NCBI RefSeq assembly: GCF_963576615.1
Contig: NC_088708.1
Coordinates: forward strand, 47,169,196 to 47,233,195
Length of the DNA stretch: 64,000 bases
DNA from: Watersipora subatra
Lineage: Eukaryota > Bryozoa > Gymnolaemata > Cheilostomatida > Watersiporidae
Direction: 5' to 3'
Shown here: positions 4,915 through 43,200 of the stretch, piece by piece
How positions within the stretch are numbered: the stretch's first letter is position 1
Layout: each line of letters starts with the position of its first letter
Program-made: the position numbers and the translations under genes
Notes under the pieces: model-generated
Databases searched by the model: none
What the model saw: the letters and a program-made list of their open reading frames with translations, nothing else
Told to the model about the DNA's origin: nothing

Positions 4915-5985
4915 TGATTTGTGCACTGGTACGGCAGGTACACTACTCGCTGCCTTGATCACCACACAGTGTCCCTATCTGTTTGCTAGTATGGTTTTCT
5001 ACTCTAGCTTAATTGTACTGAAACACAGAAAACACATCACTCTGGTTAGAAACAAAACACACAGGTGCATATCTTTAAAAATTGTCCATGAAATTGACAA
5101 AGTATCTACTTCCACCCAGTGAGCTCAACCGCATTGGACCACATACATTTGTGTGTACTAACTCTAAAACTCTGGGACTTGATAAGACTATAGACTTGAA
5201 AAGAAGTCTAGAAATTTTTCATTTTTAAACAGATCAAAGTTCATATTAGACAGGTCTACCCTATCTACTAGAAATTTGTTATTAGCACGTTTTATGGTAC
5301 TATTACCTGCATGAGCGAGTCTCTTATACTATATATCTACACCTGAGGCTACATTCACAGTATGGTTTACATCAGCCAGATCTAAGAAATAAAGTTTGTT
5401 CATGAGTGTACTCTGCCAACAACCATGCTTCTGTGATTTTTCAGCCAACACCTCATGCGACCAAATTGAACTATATATCCCCTCTGGGTGGCAGCTCTGA
5501 CTGAGAATAAGTTGTCATCTAGAGCAGGTACATGAAGCACATTAGTGAGAGTTACAGCTTGTTGCTTGTTCTGACTCATTCACAGGGTTTTACATCACCT
5601 CTTGTAACGCCTTGAACTTTTGTTCCATCCGCAACAGTCAAGAATTCTGGATTCTCAAGCGTAGTGTAGTCTGTGTATAACGCCTTACTTATACACATAT
5701 GGCTACTTGTCCCATTGTCTATAGCCCAGAGTAGAGAGTTTGATGCGGTACCTTTGTTGTCAGTAGATTTGTTTAGTGGTATCACGAATGCGATTTCATC
5801 GCCGGCTGAATCAGAGGCAGCTGGTGTGTTGCGTTGAGTATAACCACTTTTATACCTTCTACCTCAACCTCAGTTTTAACTACCAGTTATATTCTGAGAC
5901 AAGACCACTGATAATGAGAGAAACATTTCCAACACTGCTTTTGTTTTTACTTTTCAGTGGTTTGCCAGATTTTCTTTGATGAATC
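4915..5985 (-). pseudogene. Ty1/Copia-type LTR retrotransposon gag-pol relic
   Basis: Reading right to left on the - strand: a degenerate zinc-knuckle piece near 5920 (CWKC then broken), an aspartic protease motif DNGTSSHM near 5715 (compare the Copia D-[ST]-G-[AT] SHM type), a conserved LTNVLHVP-like step near 5540, a GAG-pre-integrase-like stretch near 5290, then integrase core motifs near 5130 ([17 protein letters not shown]) and 4990 (LCGDQGSE). Several frameshifts and stops break it. The open stretch at 5576-5785 is the longest intact part. No LTRs were found. This is a dead partial copy, with no reverse transcriptase region in the window. Confidence 0.75.
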
Positions 5986-6840: not shown

Positions 6841-9800
6841 TTAGATATAAAATAAAACCAAAAGAGGTGCTGCCAACAATGAGTAGCAGAAAGAAAGAAT
6901 TGTTGACTTGCTTGGGCTTGTTTGTTGAAACTTTGTTGGAAGATTCATAACAGTTAGAGGTTTTGTTGTAGTAGGGTTCGGATCTGCAAACATTTTACAT
7001 ATCATAACATGTTATACATTATAACATATCATATATTATAACATATTAGATATTATAAGATATTATATATTATAAGATATTATATATTATAAGACATTAT
7101 ATATTATACGGTATTATATATTATAAGATGTTGTATATTATACAGTATTATATATAATAAGATATTATATATTATACAGTATTATATATTATAAGATATT
7201 ATATATTATAATGTATTATATATTATAACATATTGTATATTATAACATACATGTATTATATATTATAACATATTATTTGTCATAAGAAAAACATCAGCTC
7301 TTACTATCACTTATTATTTCAGTTTTATCTTCTTTTATCATTTTAATTAAATTGTTACTACTTCAGAGGCTCAGAAAATTCTAATAACACTTTTTAAAGT
7401 TTAAAGTATAACTCAGAGCTGTGTCCAAATCAAATGAAATCAAATCAGTTGCACGCTGATTGATTTAAAATTACTTTTCTTGTTTGCATCAAATGATTTC
7501 TATTAAATCAAATTACTTGCCTGATGCGCAGAAATCGAATTCTAAATCACTCAATGAGTTGGAAATATTTGACCAATTATTGGGTAGAAAAACATTTAAG
7601 AAGCACAGCGAATGTTCAACAAGATAGGGTAGATAGCTCCCATGTTTCCTTTTTCCTTTTCAACTGTTGATAAAACAATGTTGTTATATATTGTTTATGT
7701 TGTTATACACATGTATATTCTACTGTATACAAGTAATAGTAATAAATTGATGACAGATGAAGTATTTTCTTTATTGCTCAGTGTACACAAATGTGTTGAG
7801 TATAATATACTCAACACATTCGTGTACACTGAGCAATAAAGAAAATACTTCATAAAAATATTATTTTATGCATTTTGATGCGGAAGCAGCGGTACACAGA
7901 ACATAAAATATTAAAAATAAACAAAATTATTACCATTACTATAAAGAAAGTATTTGAAACTCTGTTTATCACCTGTTGCTATTGAATATCAAAACCAAAG
8001 TTTTGAAAAGCTGATTCAAATAAAGACCTTCACAATGGACGCATTATGAATCGAATTTTGCTAGAAGAGTTTTTCGGAAAAGTCATTGCGAGAAAGACAA
8101 TATATATACTGACAACAGTTTTAAATAGCATTTGTCCTATCTTATTTCATTAACGCGAAGAATTGTATCATATATAGTGCAGTTCTATCATTCTAGATAG
8201 AGCAACTATAAAATTATTACAAAATGATAATATTCTTACAAGACTACTTATATTTTCAGACTACCTCTAGTACTATTCTCAGACTGCTTCCATGTTATTG
8301 TTACTAAAAGCCTGGCAGTCATGTGTGTCATAGAAGATCGTCAGGTGTGCCACAAAAGCATAGAGAGTAAGAACGCGCACACCTACTCTAATATACTGCA
8401 AGGGGGATGTTTAGCCAAGAATGTAGAGCGCCTGATGAGTGAGCTGACGGTTGTGGTTCAAACCCTGTATGATGCAATCTTTTCCCAAAATTTCTACAGT
8501 GGCTTTGGACAAATGACACGACTCTTATTATAGTAATAATTATTAAATCACGACACTGTATATAGCAAATTAATTAGAAAATCGTCATATAAAAAGCAGA
8601 AATGTTCAAATTAACAGAAGGCAAGGACATCCAGTGATTAAATTAAAAGATGCAACTCTTATACCATCACTGTTCGCCCTTCAATTGATTTTTTTCTGCA
8701 AAATGTCTGTCATTTGAACATATTATTGACACTGCACACTAGGAGAAATGCCATCTAAGCTTGTCGGTGTATATTTGGCTTATCCCTGCAAAGACTGCTC
8801 CAATAGAAAATGTGTCTAGGACGAAATTCTTTATTTAGATCAAGTTTTCAAAAATATTGTTTTTGATGCATAATGTTAACAGGTGAGTTGTAAAATAAGA
8901 GAAATATTTTTTCCATACCAATGGCAATAATTTTGTTTCTTTTTAATATTTTATGTTCTGTGTACTGTTGTTCTTATGTAAAAATACATTAAATACACTC
9001 AACACATCCATGTACACTGTACACTGTATACTGTACACTGTATGCTGTACACTGTATACTGTACACTGTATACTGTATACTGTATACTGTATACTGTACA
9101 CTGTATACTGTACACTGTATACTGTATACTGTATACTGTACACTGTGTACTGTACACTGTATACTGTACACTGTATACTGTACACTGTATACTGTACACT
9201 GTATACTGTACACTGTATACTGCACACTGTATACTGTATACTGTACACTGCATACTGCACACTGTATACTGTACACTGTATACTGCCCACTGTATACTGT
9301 ACACTGTATACTGTACACTGTATACTGTACACTGTATACTGCCCACTGTATACTGTACACTGTATACTGTACACTGTATACTGTACACTGTATACTGTAT
9401 CTGTCATCTACTTGTTATTATTACGCAGTGCAATATATGACATCATTGTTGACATTAGCTTGGATGTTTTAGTAATAGTATAATATTACCATAGTTGTCT
9501 TCGAAGGTAACTTCACATGGTAACTTGGTATAACATTACATCCATTTTGTAACCAATAAATTAACTGTCAAAGGATTGCAGGGTAAAGTGTTCATTAACA
9601 ATTAAGGTAGATTTATTTATCAAATCCAAATCTTAAATTACTTTGTTGTGTCAATAAGACCTCAAATTACCTAAGCATTTGTCCAAATCAAATATAAGCG
9701 ACCTCAGAATACTAAAAAGGGAATTTGTTTCAAATATTTGTATATTCCAATTTGGAATCATAACTGATTTGTAACAGCTTTGGCATAGCTACCAACTATT

Positions 9801-12800
9801 AATTTACTAGTCATCAATATATTTAGTTATTGAAACTGTAATCACATTAAGGAGGAGTTGTAATCTCTTTTCATGTTAATGAAAAGACAATTTCTATTGC
9901 TATGTTACTTTTTAGACAGTTGTGTTTATAGTTAAGAAATTGTTTTAGTAGGCTTTCAGTACATGGTGATGAATATGTCTTGACACTGTTTTAAAGTACC
10001 TGTACCTATTTCTACATGTTTTAAAGTGCAAACCGATTTGGTAATTAGGTGCAATTAAATACTATAACTAATCGATTAATCATTGAAATTTAGGCAACAA
10101 AGAATAACTTCTAGCTTAATAGCCGTCAGGGTCTTTAAGCTAAGTCAAGATATTAATTCTAAAGTTCAACGGAAAACAAACTATAAAAAATGTTTTCTTT
10201 GTTATCTCATTTGGAAGTTAAGCCATGAATTAAAAAATGCTTAAAGCATTTGTAATATGGTAGAAAAATGCTGTAAAACCAGTACTAACTTACATATATC
10301 ATATTCAAATGTAATATCAAGGTTCTTTGTGCCGAGCCTCTCAAATTTCAGAAGAGCTGGTGTTTTAGAAAAAACCACTGCAGGGGAATGTGCAGTTAAT
10401 GTACAGTATAATGTTGTAAGGTTGCAGGCTTTTTCACCCTGAGCACCGCCATTTAATCTACAATATACAAGCAACAGGCCAATCCTTAGACCTGCCAACT
10501 CTTGATTTTCAGACTTGTCAAACGTACATGTAAATAATGCATGAAAAAGTCTCGCAAAATTCAAAGCAAAACATGTATTGATACAGTTATCTCATGACAG
10601 GTAGGCTACTAATAAAAAGCAGTGTTGTTCAGAAACAACAGATTACTTTAAACACAGGAGGTTTATAAGTCTATATATTTTGGTAAGAGATTTTGTTTTT
10701 ATGTTAGTTATTTATTGTTTTGTAAAAGTAATCATAGTCACAACAAGCAACCCGTCCAAAAAAAACATACAGTAAACTGATTGAAAAGTTGAACATGAAA
10801 TAATTTTTTAGGCATTTTGTGAGTGCTTTGAAAAGCAATTTTGTGAGGAATGTTGTGACCAATTTCGTGGGCAATTTTGTGAGTGATTTTCTAGGTGAGT
10901 TAACATGCGGTATCGTAAATGCCAATCATAAAAGTTACATGTGCAAACAGTAAATTACATCTCTGACTAAGGCAATCATTAGCAATCTATTTGTTCTGGG
11001 CTCACCAACTTTTCTACCCAATCAACCAATAGCAGATTGCAATAATTGTTCTTCTGCAAATACACATATTATGCATACTGTGGCTTGTTAAGAAAACATA
11101 TGCACCGATGCTTAACCCAAAGCATCGGCATAAATAATTTTGCTGTAAATATTCTACGGTGAAATTTTCCAGCTATGTACATGTAGCTCTAGCTGTAAAA
11201 GCCACATTTCAAAACATTTTTCGAATAAAATAAAATTTTGTTTTAATTCAATAAAAAATTCTGTTATAAATATAACTTAGCCTTCTAATTCATTGTTGTA
11301 CAAAAACAGACCAAGCGAAGCCAATATTTTTAAAAAATCGAATCAACATATGAAATGTTCGTTTTTTTTAAGTTCCTTAAGCAGATGTAGGTAAACATAG
11401 CCCAGCACAAGTACAAGATTATGTATACAATAAACTGTGATCATGCGATGGAAAATCTATCATTAATTATTGCTTTGCGCCTTTTGATTCGGGTGAGAGA
11501 GCAGCTCAACAAAAAGGCCGGGTTGTTTTCTTGAGCATTAGCGTTCAAACAGCTATGCAATGTATGTTCACTAAAAATACTTCTATGCAGATGACCATAT
11601 AATATGTGTACCGATCATGTATGGGGATGTACGAGAAAAAAATTAAACTGTATACGTCTCATTCATCCACTGAAAATACAATCTGCAACACAAAGAAGGA
11701 AAAAGCTCAGCGTGTTTATCACGCATGAAAATTCTGAGTAATTGTTTTTAGTCACAGTTTAAGCACTAATTTTGTTTTATTTCGTTCTTGCATCTCATGT
11801 GTCCACCTTAAAGGTTGACTTGCAACAAAATTCATATTACAGCTATTTGGTATCAAAAGATGCACCATGTCTTACTATGCTGTGTTGTAGGTACAAAATA
11901 TGTGGAAATGCGATTACAAGCTCTTAAAAGCTCAAAAACGAGCAGTTAATCGCAGCCATCATGGAAACGTCGTAGGTTGGAATCCCTCTTCAAAGCGGCT
12001 CACATGGGACGTAGTTGAACACGATGTGCTTCTGTCTACACTTTCATGCAACCTTATTCGTCGAAATATTTTCAAAAGTATACTTCACGTAGGTATATTC
12101 AATAAAACCATGTCTATTGTTGTTACGCATTTATTTCATTATCATTGTAATGCTGCCACCTTGAGTACGGAAATCTCGAAACCTAGCCTAAAAACTAGTT
12201 AAATTTTTTAACCTTAGCTTGAAGGAATGCTTATCATTCTTTGATAAACATGAGGAGCCTGTTGGTCACTTGTGATAGTCGAAAAATGTTGCATAGATTG
12301 TTCGCACCATTTGACAGGAAGTATGGGTGACATAATCAGATTATGACAAGATGATTAGATCAAGCTGAAACCAAACTGTGAAGTGGCGAGCATTTATATT
12401 TGATACGGGGTTTTCCGGTGGAACATGAAGTGTTAGTCATAAACTAGTGCTACGAGAAATTTTATATTGAGTCTTTTATTGGCCTTTCATTTCACGGGAT
12501 AACATCACATGTCAAAGCAATAGCCACGTCAAGTTGAGTACGTCATCAAAATATAGATATTCTAACCTATGGCCGTTTTTTTAACTTTTAAGAGGTTGTA
12601 CTCACATTTCCACATAATTTGCACCTACAGCACAGCAGAGTAAAACATGGTGAAACTTTTAGTACCAAATAACTGTAATGTGAATTTTGTTGCAAGTCAG
12701 CCTTTAAGTCAAAGGTGTCATTTTTAATAAGTTGCTCGGAGAGTTTGTTTAAAGTGTAAAAAAGAATTTTTGCTGAACCTACTCATGGAAAGTTGCAACA

Positions 12801-15800
12801 TCCCAGCTCACTTGTCCTCCTGTATCACTCAGAGTCAATTTGTCTGCACAATCTAAGCAAAGACGCTAAAACATAGGAAATAAGAATACTTGAGACATGA
12901 GTGCACCAGCAAGAGCAAAACCGAGTTTTGTCACTAGAAAATAAGCCAAAGGGGTCACTGGCATCAAAGAGATAGCGAGAATATCTCTCGCCTGTGTCAG
13001 GTTTTACTAGGTAATAATGAATTAGTCAACTGTCGTTTGCTGTAGTCCTAACAGCCCTATTTTATGGAGCTGAGACCTGAACAATGTACCAAATGCAGTT
13101 GCAGTGACTACACACACTCATGATGAGACAACAAGGTCAAAAACACCAAAATCCTAAGATGGTCTCCCATCCACGGTGAACATCGCGATAGAAAAGGGCC
13201 TAAGATACATGTAGCTTAGACATGTGCACAGAATGGGTCATGAGCAATTGCCAAGACAACTACTATATTCACAACTCTACGTAGGGAAGAACAATCATGG
13301 CAGACCCAGACTGAGATACAAAAATGTAGCTATCATGCTATGCGTATCATGAAGTTGAGAGAACTACAAACTGATGGCAAAAGGCGAAAAACAGAACTAC
13401 ACGGAAGTCAGTAATAAACCATAAACCATAAGACAGTCATTTTCGAAAAGACTGACTGCAAGAGAGATGGAAGAAGAGAGAATGAGTTAGTCACACTCGT
13501 TTCGACTAGATCTCTGGCACATATCAATCAATAACTCCAGTCTTGTCCGCTTCTAGAGTTTAGGAATATTGTTAGTCGTTGATATAATACAGTCCCAATA
13601 TACCATAACTAGTTACTAACTGTTTACTTTGTGCATTAAAAATCTGAGTGGGTTGCTGTTATAGCAGAGTAATAACAGTATCACCTTCACATGCGGCAAA
13701 AAATATACAATGTCTCTCATATAGATTATGTAGCATTAAGCAAGCAAGAAGCTAAGAGTCATATAGCAGATGAGCAAGTTTTATCCCCAGCTTTTCCCTT
13801 TTTAGTTGTGGACTTAAATTGATTTTTGAAAGTTAAATGAAGTGTAAAATTCGGTTACAGAATGAACTGACTCATTATTATTACTACTTTTTACCCATGA
13901 TGCTCTCTCACGGTGCGCCGAACTGCCAAGCATACTAGTGTACTAGTTAGTACACTAGTATGCTTGGCAGTTCAGCGCACCGTGAGAGATCGTCATGAGT
14001 ATCAGTATGTGTATAAATCTTTCACTAACAAATCGATTTCTGTACCTGGACATACAGTAATTTGATTTGGTTTTTGATTTATTTTCATCAACAAAATTAG
14101 TTGAGCAAAAGAAAAAAGCTGGAGGAGTGATGAAGCCCATAATACGCAATAGCATAGCTAGTCGTGGAGTTGGGCTTGTCGTCATCAGTTTTATTCACAT
14201 GTTAAAAGATACAACCTAAGTTCTCTCTTGAAACTAGCCAAATTCTCTATGCCTCTGATAGACTTAAGGAGTTAGTTCCAAAAAATGGCTTGTTGGAAAT
14301 GCACCCTGCGATGGCCTGCATGGGAGGAAGATTGTGCGAGATTTAGACAGGAATTGGAGAATCGGGTTTGATAAATTGTGCGAGGGATGTAATTACAATG
14401 AAATTCTTGATGGGCTAAAAGTATAATGTGATATGAATGTAGAGAACTGAAAGGTAGTATAGATGATAATCTGTAAAGAGGTTTGGTGTGGGTAAAGCGA
14501 GGTTTTTTTGTGAATGGTCCTTATCATGCGTTTTTGAAATGTTATTAAATTTGTAAGATGGGTGGGAGGTGCATTGCCCCATGCCTCAATGCAATATAAA
14601 TGTTTGGAATTAACTATGGAATTGTATGATAAAAGCAGAGGTTTGCGGGGTAAATATTTGGATGTGCGGTAGAGTAAGCCTGATAGGGGTCTCAGTCTTT
14701 TTAGTAAATATTTGATGTGTTTTTTCCAAGTGAGATGAGAATCAATAAAAATACCTCAGAATTAAGTGTGATCTGTCTGACGAATTGGTTTGTTGAAAAT
14801 GAAAAAGGGATGAGTGTTGGCTAGCTAAAATTTATTTTGGGGGTTTTTTAGTAACATGAAATTATTCTTATCGACATTTAAGGTGAGTTTGTTAGAAGTG
14901 CATCAGTTTTGAATAGCGAGAAGTTCGTTATTTAAACATTCTATGCGCTCGTTGATGTTAGAGGATTGGAAAAAGAGATTAGTCTCATCTGCATAGAACA
15001 AAGGTGTGAGAAAGTTGGTGACATGTGTTAAATCATTTATGTAAATTAAAAAAAGAGTTGAACCAAGGATGGAACCTTGAGGTACACCACATGTTAAATC
15101 TAGTATGGAAGATAAAGTGTTACCAATAATAGTGTGTTGTTTACATTCGGTTAGCTTTTGATCCAGTTAATGGCGATGATGTCAAAAGTAAGATTGTGGA
15201 GTTTTGAGTACAATATGTTATAATCTATTGTGTCAAATGCTTTACTAAATTCCAGAAAGATGCCAAGAACACATTTACCATTGTTTAAGGATTTTAAAAC
15301 AATTTTAGTCAATTTAATTAGTTCATCCTTGGTGCTGCGCTTTTTCCTAAAACCATATTGCCCATCGCTAAGCAGGAAATTACCCTCAAGGTATTCCATA
15401 ATCTGTTTATTTACAGCTTTGACAATTATCTTAATTAGCACTGGTAGCAAACTAATGGGTCTGTAATTAGAGCAAATTTTATTTGAGCCTTTTTTAAACA
15501 ACGGTTTTACTTCAGCTACTTTCATTTTACTTGGTACTTGAGAAGTTGTTAAGCTGGAGTTTAAAATTTCAGCTATTACAGGAGCAATAGCTTCTGCCGC
15601 ATCAATAACTAATTTTTATGGAATTTTTGAGTAATTACATAGTTGGTAAAATCTAATATTTGGCATTGGCGCGTATTAATTGTCATAACTTTAGAACCAC
15701 ACGGTTGGTAAAAAAATATTTTGAGACCAAATTTGTCATTATAAAACTTTGTATTAGCTGATGTCATTTGATTCCTGGGTTTGATTCTCATGCGAGAACA

Positions 15801-18800
15801 TGTTTTGTTTCAATGATTTTGGTATAGCTTCAGACAGACAGACATTGTTCTTATTATAATATAGACTAGGTGAAAGCCCGGTAATGCTCGGGTAATAAAA
15901 AAATCTTTGCACAGAAAATTTATTTCTATTTAACATCTAACAACAGTTACCATTCTGACTTTCAAACTTCACATCATGAAAAACATGTTTTGTGCAGTTC
16001 AAATAAATTAAAAGAAAAAATAAAACTAGTGTAAAAGTTTTTAAATGTAAATATGAAATAATTAGCAAATAATGGCTAGATAAAATCTGTTTTGCTACGA
16101 CTACAATAAAAAATGATTTGGCAACGATACAGTTAATACAAACTGAGAAAAAAAGAAAAATCATATGTTAAATTAATAATAACAATGGGTAAATATAAGT
16201 GTGTGTATGAAAAAGGTTACTGTTGCAGCAGAAGCTATCCATTAAAACTTTGAATTTGAAGATACTGGTACCTAATGATACCGGTACAAATGTAAAATTG
16301 AGATATTGGACATTTTTGGCTGGTAATTTGTCTGGCCGAACAGAGAGAAAATGCAGAGACAATTTCTACTCAAGATAATACAATTGTCCATGGGAAAATT
16401 ATTTAGCCTTTACAGATTTACTGATCAAGCTTTAGGAAAAACTGGAAATAGGAGTGTAACGGCACATTTGAAAACTACAAATTAAAAAAGTAAGTAATAG
16501 TAAAAAAGTAGCTTTTAAAAAATTTCAGAAAATAACAAACGCAAAAAATAGTATATATTAATAATAATGAAAATGCACATTTAGAGTATGCAATTGCAAA
16601 AAGAATACAGAGTATATGGTACGGGCAATAGGAATGATAAGAATGGCTTAACTTTGTAGTTACGCGCGCTTGTTAGCAGACTTATGATTTGAATATCACA
16701 AGTTCAAATTTGGTATGAAGGTGATTTTATTGTTAGGACAGACGAACTAGACAGACGAACTGAACAGACGAACTAGACAGACGAACTGGACAGACGAACT
16801 AGACAGACGAACTGAACAGACGAACTAGACAGACGAACTGAACAGACAAACTAGACAGACGAACTGAACAGACGAACTAGACAGACGAACTGGACAGACG
16901 AACTAGACAGACGAACTAGACAGACGAACTAGACAGACGAACTAGACAGACGAACTAGACAGACGAACTAGACAGACGAACTGGACAGACGAGCTGGACA
17001 GACGAACTGGACAGACGAGCTGGACAGATGAACTGAACAGACGAACTAGACAGACAAACTAAACAGACGTACTAGACAGACGATCTAGACAGACGACTTA
17101 GACAGATGAACTGGACAGACAAGCTAGACAGATGAACTGGACAGGCAATCACTGAGATTAATATTGAAAATAGTTGCTTTTCTTCAGTATAAGAGTAATA
17201 AGGTCATTCAGTTATACAACTCTAGTATAATTCCTGAGCTATCAGATAACCCACCCGTGACTTGATTTGGAGTGTAGAGTCTCTCGGAAAGGACAACGAC
17301 CAGGAGTTTGATGTTGATCCACTTTTAATATCTAAAGTTCCACTATTGGAGAGTGTGATATTGTTTCTTCTTGACAGAGAGTTTGCCGCCGTCAGGTCAG
17401 CTACAAACATGTTAAAAATCAAGTGTGTAAGAACACTGGTGAGGCGCATGAGGAGTACTGCCAGTATAGATACGTACATATCTAACATGCATTTACATAT
17501 ATGTATATATACATATATACTTATATATCTACATCTGTATACATATAAGGGTGTCAACCATGGGGTCGGTGGTTTGAGTCCTGCTTAATGTCAATCTGAC
17601 AAAAAGCTCTCAGCAAGCTTTTAACTCTGGAATTGCTGGGTCTTTCAGATCTAGACCATAACTTTAAGCCCCCAGTGTACCACACTGACATCGTGGGCAC
17701 GTTAAAGATCCACCTCTGTCCTTCACACATTGGGCAAGTGAAATGGCTACTTGGCTCTGTCAGACTGGACGAGTTGCGAAATTCATCCCTTCAGATTAAT
17801 CTGACAGTTCCAGACGTGGTAGATGCTGAGAACAGGCTCACCTCTACTCTACCATACGGCTTGGCCCAAGCATGCATCGCTAAGATGCAAGTCATTGTCG
17901 ATTTTGACAGACAGGCAGAAAAAAAACTTATATGGATACATAACATATGCATTTATATATATTGAAAGTTATCTTACCTAGAATGGTCAACATAGAATGG
18001 AGCAGTATAAATTCAGTAAAAAACTTTTCATGTCAATACTTAATAAAAGAACAAAAATTGCCTGATTCTAAGAGCTATCTTTTCTGTAACTACTAGTAAT
18101 AAAACATTCAGAGCACCACAGAATTCACCAATCACATGACAGAGTGGGATATTTGAAAGTCAGCATGTTGTCGCAGTTGAGATCTACAGCCTGATGATTG
18201 CGTAAGCAAGAAACTGACGGTAGCTGACAAAAGATAAGTACACTAACTAGTTCTCTATTAACTTATTTATATACTATTGAATGCTCCGAGTAACAAAAGT
18301 CTTTGCACAGAAAATTTATTTTTGTTTAATATATAACAACAGTTACCAATCTAACTTTCCAACTTCATACCATGATAAAAGTTTTTGTGCGGTTTAAATA
18401 AATTAAGAGAAAAAACAAAACAACTGTATAGGTGTTCAAACTTTGTCAAACAACAGTAACGTTCAGACTTCATATCAAGAAGAAAATTTTTTGTGCAGGT
18501 CAAATAAGTTAAGAAACAATATAAAACAAATATTAAAGTGTTTAAATGTAAATGTGAAATAATTAGCGAGTAATAGCTAAATTAAGTCTGTTTTGCTGCG
18601 GTTACAATAAAAGATGATTAATTTTGGTAATGGTAAAATTAATACAAACTGAGAAAACAAAATAAAAATCCTTAATATGCTGAATCATTAATAACAACTG
18701 GTGCATAGAAGTGTGTGTCTATAAAAAAGGTTACTGTTCCACAAAAAGCTATCCATCAAAACTTTGAATACGACGATACTGGTACCTAGAACTAGAAACT

Positions 18801-21800
18801 AGAACAAATGTAAAAATGAGATATCATACTGTTTTTGTCTGACCGAATGAAGAGATAATGTTGAGGCTCTTCCCATAGAGACAATATAATTGTCCGCGCG
18901 AGAAGAATTAGCCTTGACCCCAGATATAGTAATTGAACCTTACGAAAAATATTTCTTAAAAGGGGCGTCGTAACGCGCTGGTGCATTAATAAAATAATCA
19001 GCGTTTGCTATAGCTGGAGCGACACACACACGCACGCGCCCACGCACGCTCACGCACACACTCACACACTCACACACTCACTCACACACTCACACGCATG
19101 CACACACACACGTCGAACTCTGCCACGAACTTATAGTTAACCACCTAGCTAATATTTATTCTCTATCATCTTTTCGATATGGCATATAAGCTGTATCTAC
19201 AAACTAAGGAATATTGTTTTTATGTACTAATTAGCTGTTATTAGATATTCCAGTCATTATATACAAATCTGGGATACTGAGCCGTATCCATAAAGGTGAG
19301 CGATATGCATTCCATCTATAAGCGTGTAACTAACTGCGCATGCCATAAACGTAGGGATATGAATTATATATTTATAAATATAGATATAACTATTCATGCC
19401 ATAGACCTAGGGGTATGAATAATACATTAATAAGCAGAAACTTGTTAGTCATGTCTGGACTCCTTAATGATTGGCCACTGATGCTGTTTTCAATTTCAAC
19501 ACATACGTTAAAGTACACAGTTCACTTAGCAATATATCAGTAAATTCCTGTGGGCCTACATTCTTTCCTTGGCTTGCTTACCCCTTAACTGGATGGTGAC
19601 TAACATGGAGCTGGATGATGACTAACAAGAGACTGGATGATGACTAATAAGGGACAGGATGATGACTAACAAGAGACTGGATGGTGACTAACAAGGGCCC
19701 GGGTGGTGACTAACAAGGGACTAGATGTTGACTAATGAGAGACTGGATGGTTACTAACAAGGGTAACCACAAAGCGTCTCTTTCCCAAGCAATGCCAGAG
19801 TGTCGCTTGCAACTTTAATAAATTATGGAACTTTTCAGTATTGTACCAAGATGAAGTCAACAACTATATATAATGTGCCTTTGTTTGTCTGTCTGTATGT
19901 CCTCTACAAAAACTAACTTCAAATGAAACAACCTATCTGAAATTTTTCATTTGGTTTTTTTGGCACGCCCCCAGTTCGAGGCCAAAAGTTTTTGGTGTCT
20001 CTACCCATAAGAGGCGTGAAAGGCCTTTTGTGGATGAAAATAATGCTAAATACGGTTTTTAACGAAATAACTAAAACTTGCCCAACATAGGGCTTGAAAC
20101 CACAACACTCCACTTATTAGACTGACACTCTCACCATCTAAACTAATCAGCCATTTTTTGAAGCATCAAAATAATTGTGATGAGCAGAAATAAGGATTGC
20201 TTATTTATATCTTTGTTTTGTTTATTTCTTTAATATATTTGTTTGAAAATTACTAAAATAAAAGAATAAAAATTAGAAGTTATAAATTCAAATTGTATTT
20301 TTAATTAGGCAACACCGGGGTTGTCTTCTTGTAGTTTTTAAGGGGCATTTTATGATGAGCAATTAAAAATATGAATAAATAGATTGCTTCTAATAACATA
20401 TTAAATGTTGCAGGAAACAGCAAAACTAGTATTTTAGGCAGCACATGTGTATAAGAGTTATGGCTGATTGGTCTAGGGGGGGGCTGTGGAACAACAGGCT
20501 GAAGCCTTATTTCTTAAAAATCCATAGGTAGAGATAATTAGGATATTCAAGGCTAAACATCTTTTTACCAAATCAGTGACGCCAGTGTGTTACGTCTTAC
20601 TAATTTGCATGATTAACAATCTGTTTGTTTTCAGATTCATCCTGGCTGTTGTGCCAAGAGTGCTTTATCATTAAAGTAAATAGTAAACAGAGGTATAGCT
20701 TGAGTGAGAAATACTTCTCAAGTACTCACATAAGAACTGCAATATTGACTATTGACCCTCAAGTGAAGGGCTGGCTGAATAGATTAGCTTTATGGAGAAT
20801 CAGTACCATGGTCTGATTGTATGGTGCAATCGTGTACTATGAACAATAACTTTGTAGAATATCTTTCTCTTGAATAAATTGTAAGACTTGCATTGTATTA
20901 TGTAAATATTTCTAACAAGTCATTTTTAATATTTAAAATGTGAAACATATCTTTTTGTTTATTAAAAGAATGACTTAGAATTTAAAACGCTGTTTCAGTT
21001 GGATGTTTATATCTTATTCGGCTAGTATTTAAACAACCCCTTTTTTATTCAAATCTTTTGGACAATAATCATTTTATTTCAATTTTTGTAGCCAATCAGA
21101 TAAGTAAAGCAATCAGTATAAATTTTTAATTTTCTGCTTCTATTGTTGCACTTTATATAGTTTTATGCTAGTGTATTTTGAACACAGGATAAATAAGCCA
21201 CGGTAACAAAAAAAACAAAATGTCTCAAGAGCAGTTTCGTAACATTGTTGTTCAAATTTGGTCAACAAGACAACCGAAACTTGATGAGTAAACAAGAAAT
21301 ATTAGTCCTAAGGCTCGGATGTTTTACAAAATCTCAAAGAAGTTTATGGCTTCAAAAAAATTTGTACTTTAATTTGTGAAGAGTCAGCACTTATCAGTAA
21401 CTAGTAGGACCACAGTCTAGTTTAATCTATTTTAGCTGTTACAGAAAATGTTAATATTCTGAATAAGTCTGTTTACTCGTCTTATTGTAACATGTTCTAT
21501 GATGTTTATTTGTTTCTTTGTTTAAGGAGTATGAAAGAATTTGCATCCGTTAATGTTGGACTATTTTAGTGGCTATCCTAGCTAGCAACTAGCGTGAATA
21601 ACACCGAATCATTGCGGATTTTTGAACACATTAAAAAAAAACAAATCTGATGGTGTTCAAGACCATCATCAAGTTTTCAAAAAAGTGAGTTGATGATAAC
21701 CAAAACTATGCAAGTTCATATTAATTTTTTTCGTATTAACTCAGTTGTTCAAGCCAAGAAAAAAAAACCTATGGTTGTTCTTGTGCTCTTTGTAATGAAG

Positions 21801-22456
21801 GCATGGTTTACCAACCAATTTGACGAATCAATTTGTGACCTCAAGCTTGTGAATGCTGTAGGCAGGAATTATCTTATACTGAATAAACCATGAGGTCACA
21901 AAATGTATTTTAAAAAAGGGACTTAAAAATATGATCAAAGTTTACATTACACTAAGCCTTGTAAATTTAGTGTTATTCTCAAGTGATAAATTGGTGTTTT
22001 CGGTGACCTTGGTGACCCTTGCGATATCAAAGAACATTTTTAGTGCTAATTAAGGTAAACATTTGGTAAACATGCCAAGAATATATCATGCAAAACTGTA
22101 CATTGCTTTTTAGTAAATTCGAAATATAGATTTGTTTTCTTTTGTATTCTAGGATTAAAATGATAAAACAGACTGCCATTTCTTACTTCATTTCAATTAC
22201 GCTTTAAAATATTACGCTGAGAATTATGCAATTTGCTCATTGAGCTTCCAGCTCGCAAATTTCTGTGATAAGTCACCAATAGTTCCGTCTTAAACCATTC
22301 AAAACGTAATACATTCAAACAACATGTTCCTGCTCATCGGATTGCTTATCTTACAATAGCCCTTAAAGGGATCAAAAGGTGAATGATTTGAGACTTACTT
22401 GAGTGGGTCAGTGAGACGTGCAGAAGCAACAGAACAACCAGTATCTTTATAGCCAT
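6841..22456 (-). CDS. Small signal-peptide protein with GPI-like C-terminus (four exons)
   Basis: Assembled from splice sites and phase, in coding order: 22456-22399 (ATG), 12843-12783, 10457-10294, 6983-6841 (TAA). Donors are GTAAGT, GTAGGT and GTAAGT; acceptors are TTGTGCAG, TATATTGTAG and TTTGCAG. Phases 1, 2 and 1 match at all three junctions, giving 426 bases, 141 residues. Exon 1 is a textbook signal peptide (MAIKILVVLLLLHVSLTHS). The middle holds an extracellular segment with two cysteines around an NLT glycosylation site (ACNLTTLYC) and then a beta-like run ending LDITFEYDI. The last exon gives a Thr/Pro/Ser-rich stalk (NPTTTKP, QQTSPSKS) and a 19-residue hydrophobic end (ILSFCYSLLAAPLLVLFYI) with no charged tail, as in GPI-anchored proteins. 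No family recognised. The introns (about 9.6, 2.3 and 3.3 kb) are full of repeats. Confidence 0.7.
7010..7275. repeat. AT-rich minisatellite (ATATTATAA units)
   Basis: Imperfect repeats of a ~15-base unit such as ATATTATAAGATATT (variants TACAGT, TAACAT). It lies in intron 3 of the GPI-like gene. Confidence 0.85.
7760..7850. repeat. 91-bp near-perfect palindrome
   Basis: AAGTATTTTCTTTATTGCTC and the following 25 bases are mirrored by the bases ending GAGCAATAAAGAAAATACTT, with almost no loop. One arm ends in CTCAACACATTCGTGTACACTG, which resembles the sequence leading into the heptamer satellite at 8995 (CTCAACACATCCATGTACACTG). Confidence 0.85.
8395..8540 (+). repeat. tRNA-derived SINE-like copy
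   Basis: A box-like TTTAGCCAAGAATGTAGAGC and B box GGTTCAAACCC are followed by a tail with GACACGACTCTTATTATAGT, shared with the copy at 2690-2832. The rest of 8540-8990 shows nothing further. Confidence 0.55.
9008..9402. repeat. Heptamer satellite (CTGTAYA)n
   Basis: About 56 tandem heptamers, CTGTACA and CTGTATA, usually alternating to make a 14-base unit; a few are CTGCACA, CTGCCCA or CTGTGTA. Because 7 is not a multiple of 3 and the unit holds no stop in several frames, long open frames appear on both strands. These are not genes. Confidence 0.95.
11812..12703. mobile_element. TTAA-flanked MITE, copy 1 (piggyBac-like target)
   Basis: Inverted ends of about 190 bases begin AGGTTGACTTGCAACAAAAT. 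Both ends are flanked by TTAA (11808-11811 and 12704-12707). A second copy with the same ends, length (~880-890 bases) and TTAA flanks lies at 45110-45988. The interior encodes no transposase. TTAA duplication is the mark of piggyBac-type insertion; family assignment is inferred. It lies in intron 2 of the GPI-like gene. Confidence 0.85.
13040..13420 (+). pseudogene. RTE-like non-LTR retrotransposon C-terminal relic
   Basis: In shifting frames the + strand shows the order typical of RTE/BovB-like C-termini: LFYGAET (W replaced by a stop) near 13055, then GLRYMW.RHVHRMGHEQLP near 13200, YSQLYVGK near 13275 and GRPRLRYKN near 13300. Stops and frameshifts are frequent. Assignment rests on motif order recalled from the family. 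Confidence 0.5.
13902..13990. repeat. Long inverted repeat (hairpin)
   Basis: CTCTCACGGTGCGCCGAACT and the next ~20 bases are mirrored after a 6-base loop by a matching arm ending AGTTCAGCGCACCGTGAGAG. There is one mismatch in about 40 paired bases. It adjoins the 3' end of a - strand LINE relic. Confidence 0.85.
14190..15612 (-). pseudogene. CR1/L2/Jockey-like LINE, 5'-truncated reverse transcriptase relic
   Basis: The - strand encodes reverse transcriptase blocks in order: VKPLFKKGS and NYRPISLLPV near 15450, GFRKKRST near 15345, FSKAFDTIDYNIL near 15235, CGVPQGSILG near 15080, FYADETNLFF near 14990, then degraded thumb and C-terminal sequence to about 14200 and an AATAAA near 14190. The catalytic YADD box reads YADE, there is an in-frame stop near 14905, and the reading frame shifts near 15150. 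The copy starts abruptly inside the RT domain at about 15612, typical of 5' truncation. It lies in intron 1 of the GPI-like gene. Confidence 0.85.
15770..16640 (+). repeat. Dispersed repeat family, copy A, with SINE-like lead
   Basis: A short SINE-like piece (GGGTTTGATTCTCATGCGAG, CAGACAGACAGACATTGTTC) runs into a unit starting GAAAGCCCGGTAATGCTCGG and TCTTTGCACAGAAAATTTAT, and continuing to CTATCCATTAAAACTTTGAA near 16230. Related sequence lies at 18270-18990, at 62165-62300 and at the window's right end (63890-64000), all on the same strand. Open frames on the - strand here are not conserved. Confidence 0.6.
16650..16738 (+). repeat. SINE-like head with B box
   Basis: GCGCGCTTGTTAGCAGACTT followed by CACAAGTTCAAATTTGG, which resembles a tRNA B box, and a tail that passes directly into the 13-bp array. 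Confidence 0.4.
16736..17145. repeat. 13-bp minisatellite (GACAGACGAACTA)
   Basis: About 31 copies of AGACAGACGAACT with variants GAACAG, GGACAG and GAGCTG. The unit matches the GACAGACGAAT-type tail of the SINE family, so it probably grew from a SINE tail. Confidence 0.9.
17222..17545. other. Unassigned open region
   Basis: Both strands are open over about 17260-17480. Neither peptide is recognised and no convincing splice sites border it. It could be a fragment of a transposon gene. The last part (17480-17545) is a TATATACA-rich simple repeat. Confidence 0.25.
17548..17925 (+). repeat. tRNA-derived SINE, copy 1 (head truncated)
   Basis: B box GGTTTGAGTCCTGC is followed by a long body containing CACGTTAAAGATCC and GAAATGGCTACTTGGCTCTG. 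It matches, in opposite orientation, the fuller copy at 35780-36175. The two share CTTAATGTCAATCTGACA, GATCTAGACCATAACTT, GTGTACCACACTGACAT and GCATGCATCGCTAAGA with small changes. Confidence 0.7.
18270..18990 (+). repeat. Dispersed repeat family, copy B
   Basis: It repeats copy A: TCTTTGCACAGAAAATTTAT, AACAACAGTTACCAAT, GTTTAAATGTAAATGTGAAA, CTATCCATCAAAACTTTGAA and GATACTGGTACC occur in the same order with a ~90-base internal duplication near 18430-18520. Confidence 0.65.
19020..19112. repeat. (AC)n microsatellite
   Basis: Imperfect run of ACAC, ACGC and ACTC dinucleotides. Confidence 0.9.
19589..19764. repeat. 22-bp minisatellite, 8 copies
   Basis: Unit CTGGATGATGACTAACAAGA plus GA, period exactly 22 over eight copies, with scattered substitutions. 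Confidence 0.9.
19865..20165 (-). repeat. tRNA-derived SINE on the - strand
   Basis: On the - strand, A box TGGCTGATTAGTTTAGATGG and B box GGTTTCAAGCCC head the copy. It ends with GACATACAGACAGACAAACA and TTATATATAGT, a tail like that of the other SINE copies. Confidence 0.6.
20634..20816 (+). CDS. Possible terminal exon of an unidentified + strand gene
   Basis: A strong acceptor (CTGTTTGTTTTCAG, ending 20633) is followed by 60 open codons to a TGA at 20814-20816 and by AATAAA at 20873-20878, 57 bases further on. The peptide (SSWLLCQECFIIKVNSKQRY and following) has mixed composition and no recognised domain. No upstream + strand exon was found, and it lies inside the first intron of the GPI-like gene on the other strand. 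This may be chance. Confidence 0.25.
   Translation, partial: DSSWLLCQECFIIKVNSKQRYSLSEKYFSSTHIRTAILTIDPQVKGWLNRLALWRISTMV
21230..21720 (+). repeat. Dispersed repeat, copy 1 (pairs with 39290-39730)
   Basis: TTAGCTGTTACAGAAAATGTTA, GTTGGACTATTTTAGTGGCT, CTAGCAACTAGCGTGAATAA and GATTTTTGAACACATT recur in the same order at 39430-39660. The homology is about 70 percent by eye and has no coding potential. Confidence 0.6.
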
Positions 22457-23839: not shown

Positions 23840-26800
23840 AAATGTTTCATGGCAACCATTAAAGTCTTATTATATATGTATCTGTATCCACTACCAAGTC
23901 GCATGGCAACCTTTAAAGTCTTATTATATATGTATCCACCACTAAGTCTCATGACAGCCCTGTAGTTCTTATTATATCTGTATCTACCACTAAGTCTTAT
24001 GACAGTCCTGTAGTTCTTATTATATCTGTATCCACCACTAAGTCTTATGACAGCCCTGTAGTTCTTATTATGCCTATATCCACCACTAAGTCTCATGACA
24101 GCCCTGTAGTTCTTATTATATCTGTATCTACCACTAAGTCTTATGACAGTCCTGTAGTTCTTATTATATCTGTATCCACCACTAAGTCTTATGACAGCCC
24201 TGTAGTTCTTATTATGTCTATATCCACCACTAAGTCTCATGACAACCCTGCAGTTCTTATTATATCTGTATCCACTACTAAGTCTCATGACAAACCTGTA
24301 GTTCCTAATATGTCTATATCCACCACTAAGTCTTATGACAGCCCTGTAGTTCCTAATATGTCTGTATCCACCACTAAGTCTCATGACAAACCTGTAGTTC
24401 CTATTATATCTGTATCCACCACTAAGTCTCATGACAACCCTGTAGTTCCTATTATGTCTGTATCCACCACTAAGTCTCATGACAAACCTGTAGTTCCTAA
24501 TATGTCTGTATCCACCACTAAGTTTCATGACAACCCTGTAGTTCTTATTATATCTGTAGCCACCACTAAGTCTCATGACAAACCTGTAGTTCCTAATATG
24601 TCTGTATCCACCACTAAGTCTCATGACAACCCTGCAGTTCTTATTATATCTGTATCCACCACTAAGTCTCATGACAACCCTGCAGTTCTTATTATATCTG
24701 TAGCCACCACTAAGTCTCATGACAAACCTGTAGTTCCTAATATGTCTGTATCCACCGCTAAGTCTCACGACAACCCTGTAGTTCCTAATATGTCTATATC
24801 CACCACTAAGTCTTATGACAGCCCTGTAGTTCTTATTATGTCTATATCCACCACTAAGTCTCATGACAACCCTGCAGTTCTTATTATATCTGTATCCACT
24901 ACTAAGTCTCATGACAAACCTGTAGTTCCTAATATGTCTATATCCACCACTAAGTCTTATGACAGCCCTGTAGTTCCTATTATGTCTGTATCCACCACTA
25001 AGTCTCATGACAAACCTGTAGTTCCTATTATGTCTGTATCCACCACTAAGTCTCATGACAAACCTGTAGTTCCTAATATGTCTATATCCACCACTAAGTC
25101 TTATGACAGCCCTGTAGTTCCTAATATGTCTGTATCCACCACTAAGTCTCATGACAAACCTGTAGTTCCTAATATGTCTATATCCACCACTAAGTCTTAT
25201 AACAGCCCTGTAGTTCTTATTATGTCTATATCCACCACTAAGTCTCATGACAACCCTGCAGTTCTTATTATATCTGTATCCACTACTAAGTCTCATGACA
25301 AACCTGTAGTTCCTAATATGTCTATATCCACCACTAAGTCTTATGACAGCCCTGTAGTTCCTAATATGTCTGTATCCACCACTAAGTCTCATGACAAACC
25401 TGTAGTTCCTATTATATCTGTATCCACCACTAAGTCTCATGACAACCCTGTAGTTCCTAATATGTCTGTATCCACCACTAAGTCTCATGACAAACCTGTA
25501 GTTCCTATTATGTCTATATCCACCACTAAGTCTCATGACAAACCTGTAGTTCCTATTATATCTGTATCCACCACTAAGTCTCATGACAACCCTGTAGTTC
25601 CTAATATGTCTGTATCCACCACTAAGTCTCATGACAAACCTGTAGTTCCTAATATGTCTGTATCCACCACTAAGTTTTATGACAACCCTGTAGTTCTTAT
25701 TATATCTGTAGCCACCACTAAGTCTCATGACAAACCTGTAGTTCCTAATATGTCTGTATCCACCACTAAGTCTCATGACAACCCTGCAGTTCTTATTATA
25801 TCTGTATCCACCACTAAGTCTCATGACAACCCTGCAGTTCTTATTATATCTGTAGCCACCACTAAGTCTCATGACAAACCTGTAGTTCCTAATATGTCTG
25901 TATCCACCGCTAAGTCTCACGACAACCCTGTAGTTCCTATTATATATGTATCCACCACTAAGTCTCATGACAACCCTGTAGTTCCTATTATATCTGTATC
26001 CACCACTAAGTCTCATGACAACCCTGTAGTTCCTAATATGTCTGTACCACCACTAAGTCTCATGACAACCCTGTAGTTCCTATTATATCTGTATCCACCA
26101 CTAAGTCTCATGACAACCCTGTAGTTCCTAATATGTCTGTACCACCACTAAGTCTCATGACAACCCTGTAGTTCCTATTATATCTGTATCCACCACTAAG
26201 TCTCATGACAACCCTGCAGTTCTTATTATATCTGTATCCACCACTAAGTCTCATGACAACCCTGCAGTTCTTATTATATCTGTATCCACCACTAAGTCTC
26301 ATGACAACCCTGCAGTTCCTATTATATCTGTATCCACCACTAAGTCTCATGACAACCCTGTAGTTCCTAATATGTCTGTACCACCACTAAGTCTCATGAC
26401 AACCCGGTAGTTCTTATTATATCTGTATCCACCGCTAAGTCTCATGACAAACCTGTAGTTCCTAATATGTCTGTATCACCACTAAGTCTCATGACAACCC
26501 TGTAGTTCCTATTATATCTGTATCCACCACTAAGTCTCATGACAACCCTGTAGTTCCTAATATGTCTGTACCACCACTAAGTCTCATGACAACCCTGTAG
26601 TTCCTATTATGTCTGTATCCACCACTAAGTCTCATGACAAACCTGTAGTTCCTAATATGTCTGTACCACCACTAAGTCTCATGACAACCCTGTAGTTCCT
26701 ATTATATCTGTATCCACCACTAAGTCTCATGACAACCCTGTAGTTCCTAATATGTCTGTACCACCACTAAGTCTCATGACAACCCTGTAGTTCCTATTAT

Positions 26801-26880
26801 ATCTGTATCCACCACTAAGTCTCATGACAACCCTGTAGTTCTTATTATATCTGTATCCACCACTAAGTCTCATAAAAACT
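23840..26880. repeat. 48-bp satellite array (~63 copies) with higher-order structure
   Basis: Unit CTGTATCCACCACTAAGTCT, CATGACAACCCTGTAGTT, CCTATTATAT: period 48, tandem over 3 kb. Variants (TCATGACAAA or TTATGACAGC; CCTAATATG or CTTATTATA) recur in ordered blocks. Rare marks repeat exactly 1152 bases apart (24 units): AAGTTTCATGAC near 24521 and AAGTTTTATGAC near 25673, GCTAAGTCTCACGAC near 24757 and 25909. From 26041 alternate units lose two bases (TGTACCACC), giving 94-base dimers. The 735- and 668-codon open frames on opposite strands follow from a stop-free 16-codon unit. Confidence 0.95.
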
Positions 26881-29950: not shown

Positions 29951-31162
29951 CTACCAGAGACCTGGGAGTTTGAGCACTCGCCTCAAGATCTTAGCTGTTC
30001 CCAATAGCGCACTTTTCTGCAACTCACCTGAGTTGATTGTTGTTGGTATTTGGGCAAACCACATTTTATGCGCCAGTGTTATTGCGCCTAGTGCCCCAAT
30101 GACTACTGGGATCACAGTTGTTCTTACATCCCAGCATTTTTCAATTTCTTCTCCAAGAGGGAGATATTTCTCTACCTTTTCTTTTTCTTTGCTGGCTATA
30201 TTGTAGTCATTGGGTACTGCTATATCTATTATAGTAGCTCTCTTGTTCTCCTTGTCTACCACCATTATATCTGGATGGTTTGCTAGGACATGCTTGTCAG
30301 TTTGGATGTAGAAGTCCCAGAGGATCTTAGCGCGGTCATTTTCATTCACCTTACCAGGAGCTTCCCGTCAGTGTTGTGGTTTATTAAGGCCATACTCATT
30401 ACATAGACTTCTATACACAACACCTGCGACATGATTATGTCGCTCAGTGTATGCGTTCCCTGCTAGCTGCTTGCATCCACTGATGATGTGTTGGATGGTC
30501 TCAGGTGCATCTTTGCACAGTCTGCATCTAGGATCGTCTCTAGTGTGATAGATTTTTGTTTGGAGTTGCCTTGTTGGGAGCACTTGCTCCTGGGCTGCCA
30601 TGATTAGTGACTCTGTATTGGCTGTTAGGTTTCCTTTGTTCAGCCCCATATATGTCTGGTGAAGATCGCCAACCTTAGATATATGTTGGTGGTAAGCACC
30701 ATGAAGAGGTTTCGTGTGCCAGTCAATTTCCTCATCATCCGGGCGTAGGTCCGTTGTAAGAGCAGCCGATTGAAATTCAGCTAGCAACTTATCTGAGATA
30801 GCCATGGAGGCTGCATATGCTTTGATGCTTTGCTCCTCATTTTTCACTGTCTGCTGTACACTTTTGAGTCCCCTACCGCCATCTTTCCTATCAAGATGCA
30901 ATCTAGTAGTATCAGATTTTGGGTGGAGTGCTCCATGCATGGTCAGCAGTTTACGAGTTGCTATATCTGTTTCTTTGATGAATTCCTCAGTCCACTTTAT
31001 TATGCCTGCTAGATATCTTATTACTGGCAGTGCGTAGGTATTTATTGCCATGACTTGGTTCTTGGCATTGAGCTGGCTCCGTAAGACCTGCCGAAGGCGT
31101 TTCTTGTATTCGGTAATGGCTCTGTGACGTACCTCGGCTTCGTGGTTGATGTTGCTTTGCAT
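29951..31162 (-). pseudogene. R2-like non-LTR retrotransposon C-terminus with restriction-like endonuclease
   Basis: One - strand frame runs from 31162 to 29951 with a single interruption, a TGA at 30368-30370; the flanking pieces (264 and 132 codons) are in the same frame. The first encodes the RT thumb and linker and a CCHC knuckle (CRLC, then H and C at 8 and 4 residues spacing, near 30530). The second has the restriction-like endonuclease signature HPDIMVVDK near 30270 and TIIDIAVPNDYNI near 30225. This architecture is that of the R2/R4/NeSL superfamily. The copy begins in a TATAAA microsatellite at its 5' side, so the RT catalytic part is missing. One stop in 400 codons points to a young insertion. 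Confidence 0.85.
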
Positions 31163-31280
31163 ATATATATATATAAATATATATATATAAATATATATAT
31201 AAATATATATATAATAGATATATAATAGATATATAGATACTTGGCAAGATAATATATATATACATTATCTTGCCAAATAT
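31160..31280. repeat. TATAAA microsatellite and short hairpin
   Basis: (TATATAAA)n at 31160-31225. Then TTGGCAAGATAATATATATA mirrors TACATTATCTTGCCAA (31240-31278). Confidence 0.85.
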
Positions 31281-39730: not shown

Positions 39731-40226
39731 AGTTCAACTACAAGGCTACAGTCAACTCATTTGGGTTATTAACTTATCATGATAAATATATTGTTTTTAA
39801 TATTAATTTTCTTAATAGTTGAGTCTATTTTTTGCTTTAATCCAAACTTTCGAATAGATTGATGCCAAGTTTCGATGTTTGAAATTACATCAATATTTTT
39901 TTGAATGAAAAGTTGGCTGCACCAATCACTTTTGATCGATTGATATGGTCATCATTTTTTGTTTTCAAAGCGTTTTAGCCTCGAGCGAGTCTGAGCATAC
40001 AGCTACAATATTCTTTGAATCCTTTCTGAAGTACATTGTGTTTCTCAAAATAAACTATGATTCAGTATCCTGCTATTGACCTAGAGCATGTCATGGCGCT
40101 GCAGAGTATAAGCCTGATAACTAGGTTGGATTACAGAGACAAACATTGTTTTTATGTAATACCACTAATTATAAAATTTGTCAGCTGGTAACTCTGAAGT
40201 TGTTACTCCATCATTGTAGGACAAAC

Positions 40227-43200
40227 ATGTTGAAGCCTAGGGTCATCACAGACGGCGCTGGGTCATACTCATTCGACTCTGTGGCCAGTATTACTGAGGA
40301 GCCTCCCAATTTTACATTCGCTGGCTGTGGATTCTTAGGGATATACCATGTTGGGGTGGCGAGCTGTCTTAAGGAATATGCCCCGCCACACATGATCAAG
40401 GGGAAGATTGGAGGTGCTAGTGCTGGAGCAATTGTAGCTGCTTTAATCTTATGCGAGGCCCCTCTAGGTAGGTGCTGCTGTCTAGGGAGTTGCTGCCCTC
40501 TAAATACAACGTATCCTGCTATCCTTTATGTAGATAAAGGTTTATTATTCTCCTTCCTCTCACCAGTACTCTCACCAAGAACTAGTTTGTGATGAAAGCT
40601 GAAGTTTATTGGAAACAACAGGCGCTGTTGTGTATTTAAGATGGTTTTAAATTGATGGAATCCAACTTCACAATAGCCGTCATCTTAAAAAAATAATAGG
40701 TGAAATCTTTATGTTAGGTTTGTAGCAGAAGACTCTATTGACAGCAATTGGTGTAGTGTATTCAGTTTTGCATTCAGTTAGGATTTTGGTCGTTACACGC
40801 TGTTGAGCCCTTGAACATGATATATAATAAAACTTGACTGTCAATTGTAAAAATAAATGTAATTAAAACGTAATACTATGTCTTTTGCTCCTGAGGCTAT
40901 TGCGTAGAGATACATGTATGTCAGAACTGAGAAGAATGTATTTGTTTGAAATGAACTTGCATGAAGTTACTAGGGTTGGAAATCTGCTCACGGTCTCTTC
41001 CATACTACCCTGCGCCAAGGACTACATCTGGTCGTAGCAAGCTTCAAATCACATGAGAGTCCAGCGTTTGAACTTTGTTCCATAACATGGCTATTACTGA
41101 TCGTGTTAGCCCGTTTGCCAATGGATACGGACAAGCGTACTCATTTGCTTATGGCAATACGCCAGCATCGATAACATTTTGTAAAATTTCCAGGATTGTT
41201 GGCCATGTGCCAACTATTTACTGCTCACTGAACCCACTAGTCCTAGTTTATAACATTACAAGCGTATAATAGGCCTACTATGCGCTGTGACCTCGACCGA
41301 AGCCAAGCAATAACCTTGCGTAACCTTACGCGCGTGGAAAAACGTGCCCATTAGATTGCTAACTCTGCTATTCAAAGGCTGAGTGATTTATAATGTCCAA
41401 GTATGTAGTTACTAGAGAAGGTGGAATTGAACCACAATGCTTTTACACACTCTACGAATATTAAATAGACATGCAAATCGTTAGTCATTTGATAGATGCA
41501 GTAACAATATTTATTTGGCGAAGTTATTTCTGTAGAGCTAACACATTCAAGATTGCTGCTTCTGGCTAAGCCTTCTCATTGTTATAAAGTATTGACTAGA
41601 CAGGATTATTCTTCCTTTGTTGTGATTTACAGATATAACGTCAGCGCCTGAAACATTTACGGTATACCACATTGAAAGCTTTAAATGGTAAAATTTTGGA
41701 AATTATCAGCATGTATAAAACCTTTTTGTGTTTTATCTTCAGGATAGTACACTTTTCTAACGTGTCTAGAGTGGAAAAATTTCACTTATTCAAAATATAA
41801 CATTGTGTGTTCAACTAATGTAATCTCAGCCCGACTGGGTGTAGAATCGTGCCCCCTTTCTTGTTTTCATAGCTTTAGAAGGAATCACAAAGTGATTAAA
41901 TCATTATTCCTCTACTGCAATAGTCACTGGTTGGTCCTTGATAACACACATTTTGCTTCATAGAAACGTGCAAAACTTTGAAAATTTAATACTTTGAATG
42001 AAACTTTTCTTATAATTTTCGTCATTTGAAGCATGGCTCCAATGATGGATATTCTAAGTAAACCCTACTAAAAATGGGAACTTCCCAAACTGGCAACCCT
42101 CACTGCCATATCATGTTTGTGTTACAGACTGCTTGTTATCATTTATATCGTGAATAGAAAATAAATCTACTTTTTGTTTAGCGCTAATCTTTGCTTCTTA
42201 CTACTATAATTTCAAATAAAAATAGCCTCATTAAAAGGTCGTCAGCATTAAAATTGACAGGGGAAAACAACTGTTAGTTTATTAGTTTGAGAATCAACTT
42301 TGATTCAGGCACACCATTTAACTAGCATTCATGAAATTTGCTTAGTGTTGGATCTTCCCTTGCTGTATGGAAACTTATCTTAGGCAGTTTTCTCAAAGAT
42401 AAGACGACTTCTAGGAACGATATTCAAAGCAGTGGTAATGCAGTAGGCGTAAAACACTCATACACTGATAGAATTAATACGGTTGTTCTAATCATCTTTG
42501 TATGAATGCATAGGCATTGCTTACCCTAAATGCTGCCTGGTGTAAAGTGTTTTGCTGTCCCCTAATATACAGGCAGGTGGAGCTGCTAGTGCTAGATATC
42601 TATATACCCTAGGACACTTATATTTCGCTAGTATTTAGTTTCGTGAGTAGCACACAGAGTAAAATTTCGCTGCAACTTAATTTCGCAGCTCTGATGAGTG
42701 CGAAAATATAGTGATGTGAAAATAAATACAGTGGAACAAACAAATTAGATTCCTCAGGTCCGGTCCTCTAGTAAAAAAAGTTGTTATATTTGCGACTAGT
42801 TTGTATTTGTAACCCGCAGGTATAAATGTATGGCAGAAATCGATAATTCAACGTGATCGCTTGCTGCCATTTGTTTCTTGGACTATCAATGACGTCTCGG
42901 TCCTTTCCGTCGTGACCGATATGGTACCAATATTCGATCTCAAGTATTTATAGCAAGCGATGGCCATGGCACGTTTTGAGTTCACAATATTTCAAATTTA
43001 AAAAAAATCAAATACAGTACATGTCTCATAAAAAAGAAAATAGATAACAACCAACATCACAACCAGAACTGTATTACATGGTTGGACCTGATGAGGGTTG
43101 TTATCGTTTTTGGTTGGCAGTAAAATTCATCACTACAATAAGTATTATTTAATTGTATGACTTCACCTACCAGACTTTCATCCTCATCAGTTACAAATTC

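Follow-up and report, generated by a model that had tools for sequence, protein, structure and literature searches.

Small GPI-anchored surface glycoproteins carried on a stalk are represented by proteins of the CD24/CD52 kind, and a second group of GPI proteins, Ly6/uPAR, is built on a three-finger domain with eight to ten conserved cysteines. The locus described here lies in a window of 64,000 nucleotides, the whole stretch of DNA that was analysed, from a genome that appears to be of animal type, judging from gene style. An earlier interpretation, made from the DNA letters and referred to here as the sequence-only reading, had joined four short exons of the minus strand into a gene for a small GPI-type surface protein. 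We followed up that candidate with splice and coding scores, searches for relatives and simulated DNA, and weighed it against chance and against other exon sets.

The exon lengths (58, 61, 164 and 143 bases), phases, AG/GT borders and 141-residue frame ending in TAA that had been claimed for this gene were all found in the sequence. Candidate exon 1 (22399–22456, minus strand, 58 bases) carries the ATG and the leader MAIKILVVLLLLHVSLTHS, and ends at the donor CAA/GTAAGT. Exon 2 (12783–12843, minus strand, 61 bases) encodes the opening part of the core (KLTLSDTGGQVSWDVATFH), and exon 3 (10294–10457, minus strand, 164 bases) encodes core sequence with two cysteines and the sequon NLT, ending at the donor TAT/GTAAGT. 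Exon 4 (6841–6983, minus strand, 143 bases) encodes a Pro/Thr/Ser stalk, a hydrophobic end and the TAA, behind the acceptor TTTGCAG, whose upstream tract is poor. The four-exon join is 426 bases long and encodes 141 residues followed by TAA, with no internal stop; AG and GT stand at every inner border, and the running phases are 1, 2 and 1. The nearest upstream in-frame stop lies 13 codons before the ATG, with no second in-frame ATG in between. An upstream acceptor would add an optional 9 bases before exon 2 (12844–12852, minus strand), and with them three residues, including one cysteine. Past the stop codon, AATAAA occurs at 6440 and 6419, ~400 bases downstream; base composition predicts 3.1 occurrences within 3000 bases of the stop, so that these two are not above expectation and lend the gene no support.

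The joined product begins with a leader, followed by a core with two cysteines and one sequon (N52-L-T); a Pro/Thr/Ser stalk then leads to the hydrophobic end. Its cysteines are at positions 51 and 58, both in the core, and at position 127, within the hydrophobic end. The stalk, PNPTTTKPLTVMNLPTKFQQTSPSKS, has a Pro/Thr/Ser/Asn character, and the hydrophobic end, TILSFCYSLLAAPLLVLFYI, spans about 19 residues. The N-terminal signal peptide was recognized by hydropathy alone, with a 12-residue maximum of 3.02, and the GPI-type end was judged by eye from SPSKS followed by TILSFCYSLLAAPLLVLFYI, the last 17 residues averaging 1.98. For exon 3 alone, the predicted fold was one beta hairpin at unconfident scores (mean pLDDT 53.5). 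The proposal of a secreted, stalked GPI-type protein agrees with the look of the joined sequence, but GPI anchoring was judged by eye, the acceptor of exon 4 is weak, and a three-exon variant of the gene would be without the glycosylated two-cysteine core. Of the proposed glycosylated two-cysteine core, C51, C58 and N52 are present; however, all are lost in the three-exon form, and the variant with 9 additional bases has a third cysteine. Because the acceptor at 12852 scores slightly better and adds that cysteine, the description "two-cysteine core" is not secure.

Splice sites were ranked among 7724 GT and 7619 AG sites with a generic model whose frequencies are approximate. The donors of exons 1, 2 and 3 ranked 62nd, 917th and 248th of the GT sites, and the acceptors of exons 2, 3 and 4 ranked 304th, 424th and 1798th of the AG sites; the exon 2 donor scored 3.52 and the exon 3 acceptor 5.31. 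Exon 1 had the highest hydrophobicity of 20 candidate first exons with the right phase and a donor score of at least 5. Generic coding scores were −3.6, 1.9, 2.8 and −7.2 for exons 1 to 4, respectively. The interval between exons 1 and 4 holds 1242 open internal candidates (25–400 bases, frames counted apart, acceptor score at least −2 and donor score at least 0), among which exon 3 was 7th by combined score, top among those longer than 60 bases, and 49th on splice score alone, while exon 2 was 21st and 92nd, respectively. Exon 4 was 26th of 33 terminal candidates by generic score. Over the 15.4 kb that separate exons 1 and 4, the best phase-compatible internal pair was the reported pair with the variant acceptor (26.25; about 25.7 as reported). 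A stronger donor within exon 2 (exon end 12812, score 8.4) has a phase that does not fit exon 3.

A neighbouring patatin-like gene provided a yardstick for these values. Its phospholipase exon at 40125–40589 (plus strand) matches Pfam Patatin (E = 1.1e-06), and the frames at 46.5 and 49.7 kb (to 50071, plus strand), which gave no meaningful Pfam match, resemble what we take to be later PNPLA2-like exons. If these frames are exons of the patatin-like gene and none was missed between them, that gene also has several-kilobase introns. At its likely splice sites, picked by the analyst at three exons, scores were 3.9–9.8, and the cores of these exons had generic coding scores of 9.9, 2.8 and −2.7. 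The acceptors of candidate exons 2 and 3 and the donor of exon 3 fall inside the 3.9–9.8 span, with the exon 2 donor (3.5) just under it. In coding score, exons 2 and 3 fit the patatin-like exons, whereas exons 1 and 4 lie below them; leaders, stalks and hydrophobic ends may score in this way. The GC content of the three likely patatin-like exons is 0.47–0.50, compared with 0.31–0.41 in their flanks and 0.36–0.45 in the candidate exons (0.45, 0.44, 0.38 and 0.36 for exons 1 to 4), and exons 1 to 3 are only 0.02 above their upstream flanks.

The Pfam scan of the window took in 92 of its 212 non-repetitive open frames of at least 55 residues. A reverse-transcriptase frame (15154–15615, minus strand; RVT_1, E = 3.4e-15) lies within the proposed intron 1, and a second RVT_1 match was found among the 92 scanned frames, one of which also gave a zf-U11-48K match (E = 0.0036). 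A 298-codon open frame at 30371–31264 (minus strand) gives a zf-RVT match that falls short of the curated cut-off (E = 0.00037). Just downstream of the candidate gene is a Copia-type fragment (5579–5863, minus strand; Pol_BBD, E = 6e-07). A minisatellite occupies 23881–26873 with 62.5 copies of a 48-base unit, and, because the unit is a multiple of three, much of it is crossed by two open frames, one per strand, that are 747 and 719 residues long. The open frame at 57898–58299 (plus strand) has a generic coding score of 20.6 over 93 residues, the top of four frames tried, and no Pfam match.

Searches for relatives of the candidate gave no Pfam family for the full protein or the core at E values up to 10, or for exon 3 alone at E values up to 0.1. 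Among PDB sequences, the single match listed was 8fzb_A, the methyltransferase EEF2KMT, at chance level (query residues 27–80, E = 0.28, 14.6 bits), and an EEF2KMT-like reading of exon 2 was dismissed as chance. The open frame around exon 3 likewise found one PDB match only, a Fab chain (E = 0.38). The claim that no known family fits therefore holds for the libraries searched, with no Pfam match and only a chance-level PDB match. Six exact eight-residue patterns from the single sequence, suited to close relatives only, gave 15 stretches in viral contigs and 145 in prokaryote genomes, with no confirmed relative in either; an animal orphan is not expected in such collections. Within the window, the best tblastn match beyond the four exons had an E value of 0.27 and lay in a tandem repeat. 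Rfam gave no match at gathering scores, and no title among those listed for background literature terms concerned such a protein.

The four exons could be a chance assembly, in which open AG/GT segments, of which any 15 kb of AT-rich DNA has a supply, link an ATG stretch that resembles a leader to a hydrophobic open frame unrelated to it; we regard this as doubtful yet a serious possibility. A fourth-order Markov model, built on the window without 18 listed tandem-repeat stretches, supplied the random sequence. Exons 1 and 4 were kept as they are, and an internal pair that equalled or exceeded the score of the real one arose in 219 of 400 random spacers, an exon of at least 150 bases scoring like exon 3 in 18 of 200. 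The sequence-only reading had noted that the three junctions fit independently; given that the internal pair is equalled in so many random spacers, matching junctions are weak evidence, a result that favours chance. Chains with the whole architecture under strict thresholds tell against it. The real minus strand had three (the reported chain, the variant of it with 9 additional bases, and one with other internal exons, 12957–12907 and 10377–10294) and the plus strand none. Two runs gave none on 300 and none on 600 simulated strands, under thresholds set post hoc at or near the observed values, two of them just below the model's own (3.5, compared with 3.52 for the exon 2 donor; 5, compared with 5.31 for the exon 3 acceptor). 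The strict filters of the two runs differed, in that the one of the 300-strand run also applied a Kozak rule, capped hydrophobic length, required a hydrophilic stalk and checked split codons. Looser thresholds again speak for chance, with at least one chain on 339 of 600 simulated strands and 31 of 600 reaching the real strand's count of 295. The excess over chance depends on the criteria, and statistical support is moderate, with the thresholds set afterwards. The weak generic scores of exon 4, the low exon GC and the lack of a homologue in Pfam, PDB, viral contigs and prokaryote genomes also point to chance, whereas the rank of the exon 1 donor (62nd of 7724) and the coherent order of the secreted-protein parts tell against it.

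A real gene might instead use a different exon set, such as a three-exon form (exon 1, 10377–10294 and exon 4) or other internal or last exons, which we consider unlikely. The three-exon join is open and encodes 94 residues, without exon 2, the core cysteines or the sequon; its middle exon has the stronger acceptor (6.9 versus 5.3) and a total score of 14.33 versus 14.35, and the same segment takes part in the strict chain that runs through 12957–12907 and 10377–10294. The 9-base extension of exon 2 (acceptor 12852), a variant of the reported gene, keeps the phase, is open when joined, and scores 11.91 versus 11.38. Exon 4 is outranked on generic score by 25 of the 33 terminal candidates; however, the top three alternative last exons all end at 5576, in the Copia-type frame with the Pol_BBD match (E = 6e-07), and a transposon is the better explanation for them; little folded core would remain without the longer exon 3.

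Based on these comparisons, we tentatively favour a gene that is real, though unverified, and that encodes a small surface glycoprotein of GPI type in essentially the exons reported, with or without the 9 extra bases of exon 2. What the DNA shows directly is the sequence of this gene model, its phases and its motifs. In its favour are the open joined frame with the full architecture, the absence of strict chains from the simulated strands and the exon 1 donor, 62nd of 7724; against it stand the post hoc thresholds, the internal pairs supplied by chance, the weak exon 4, the low exon GC, the unenriched AATAAA, the lack of a homologue in the collections searched and the unconfident fold of exon 3. 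Our confidence in the reported gene is lowered by the unenriched AATAAA and by the open three-exon form.

For the reported gene, we propose the following course. Transcription would proceed leftward from about 22.5 kb to past 6.8 kb, and three long introns would be spliced out. The leader would direct entry into the secretory pathway, where it would presumably be cleaved. The core of ~75 residues, short and perhaps beta-rich, could hold a C51–C58 disulfide and one N-glycan at N52, and the Pro/Thr/Ser stalk could bear O-glycans. The hydrophobic end would be exchanged for a GPI anchor, at S119 or S117 as judged by eye. At the cell surface, the protein might serve as a ligand, a receptor part or a coat protein. 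We judge it distinctly improbable that the gene is real and encodes, in exons so small that they would escape automatic annotation, a core that is a beta-rich surface domain with two cysteines, not described before and confined to a single animal lineage. The evidence gives no sign of any new kind of system. If real, the gene would be another candidate for a taxonomically restricted surface protein of the kind that may be overlooked by gene finders when exons are short and introns repeat-bearing. Phase-compatible junctions are cheap across 15 kb of AT-rich DNA and alone are no proof of a gene.

Like the Ly6/uPAR (CD59) GPI proteins, the candidate has a small ectodomain, a putative GPI-type end and a leader exon ending in phase 1. 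However, its core contains two cysteines, or three in the variant, where the three-finger fold has eight to ten, and, with no Pfam match at E values up to 10, it does not group with that family. The small GPI-anchored stalked glycoproteins of the CD24/CD52 kind resemble the candidate in these features: a leader, a short glycosylatable ectodomain and a hydrophobic C-terminal end without a cytoplasmic tail. Compared with these proteins, the candidate has a longer and possibly folded core with two cysteines.
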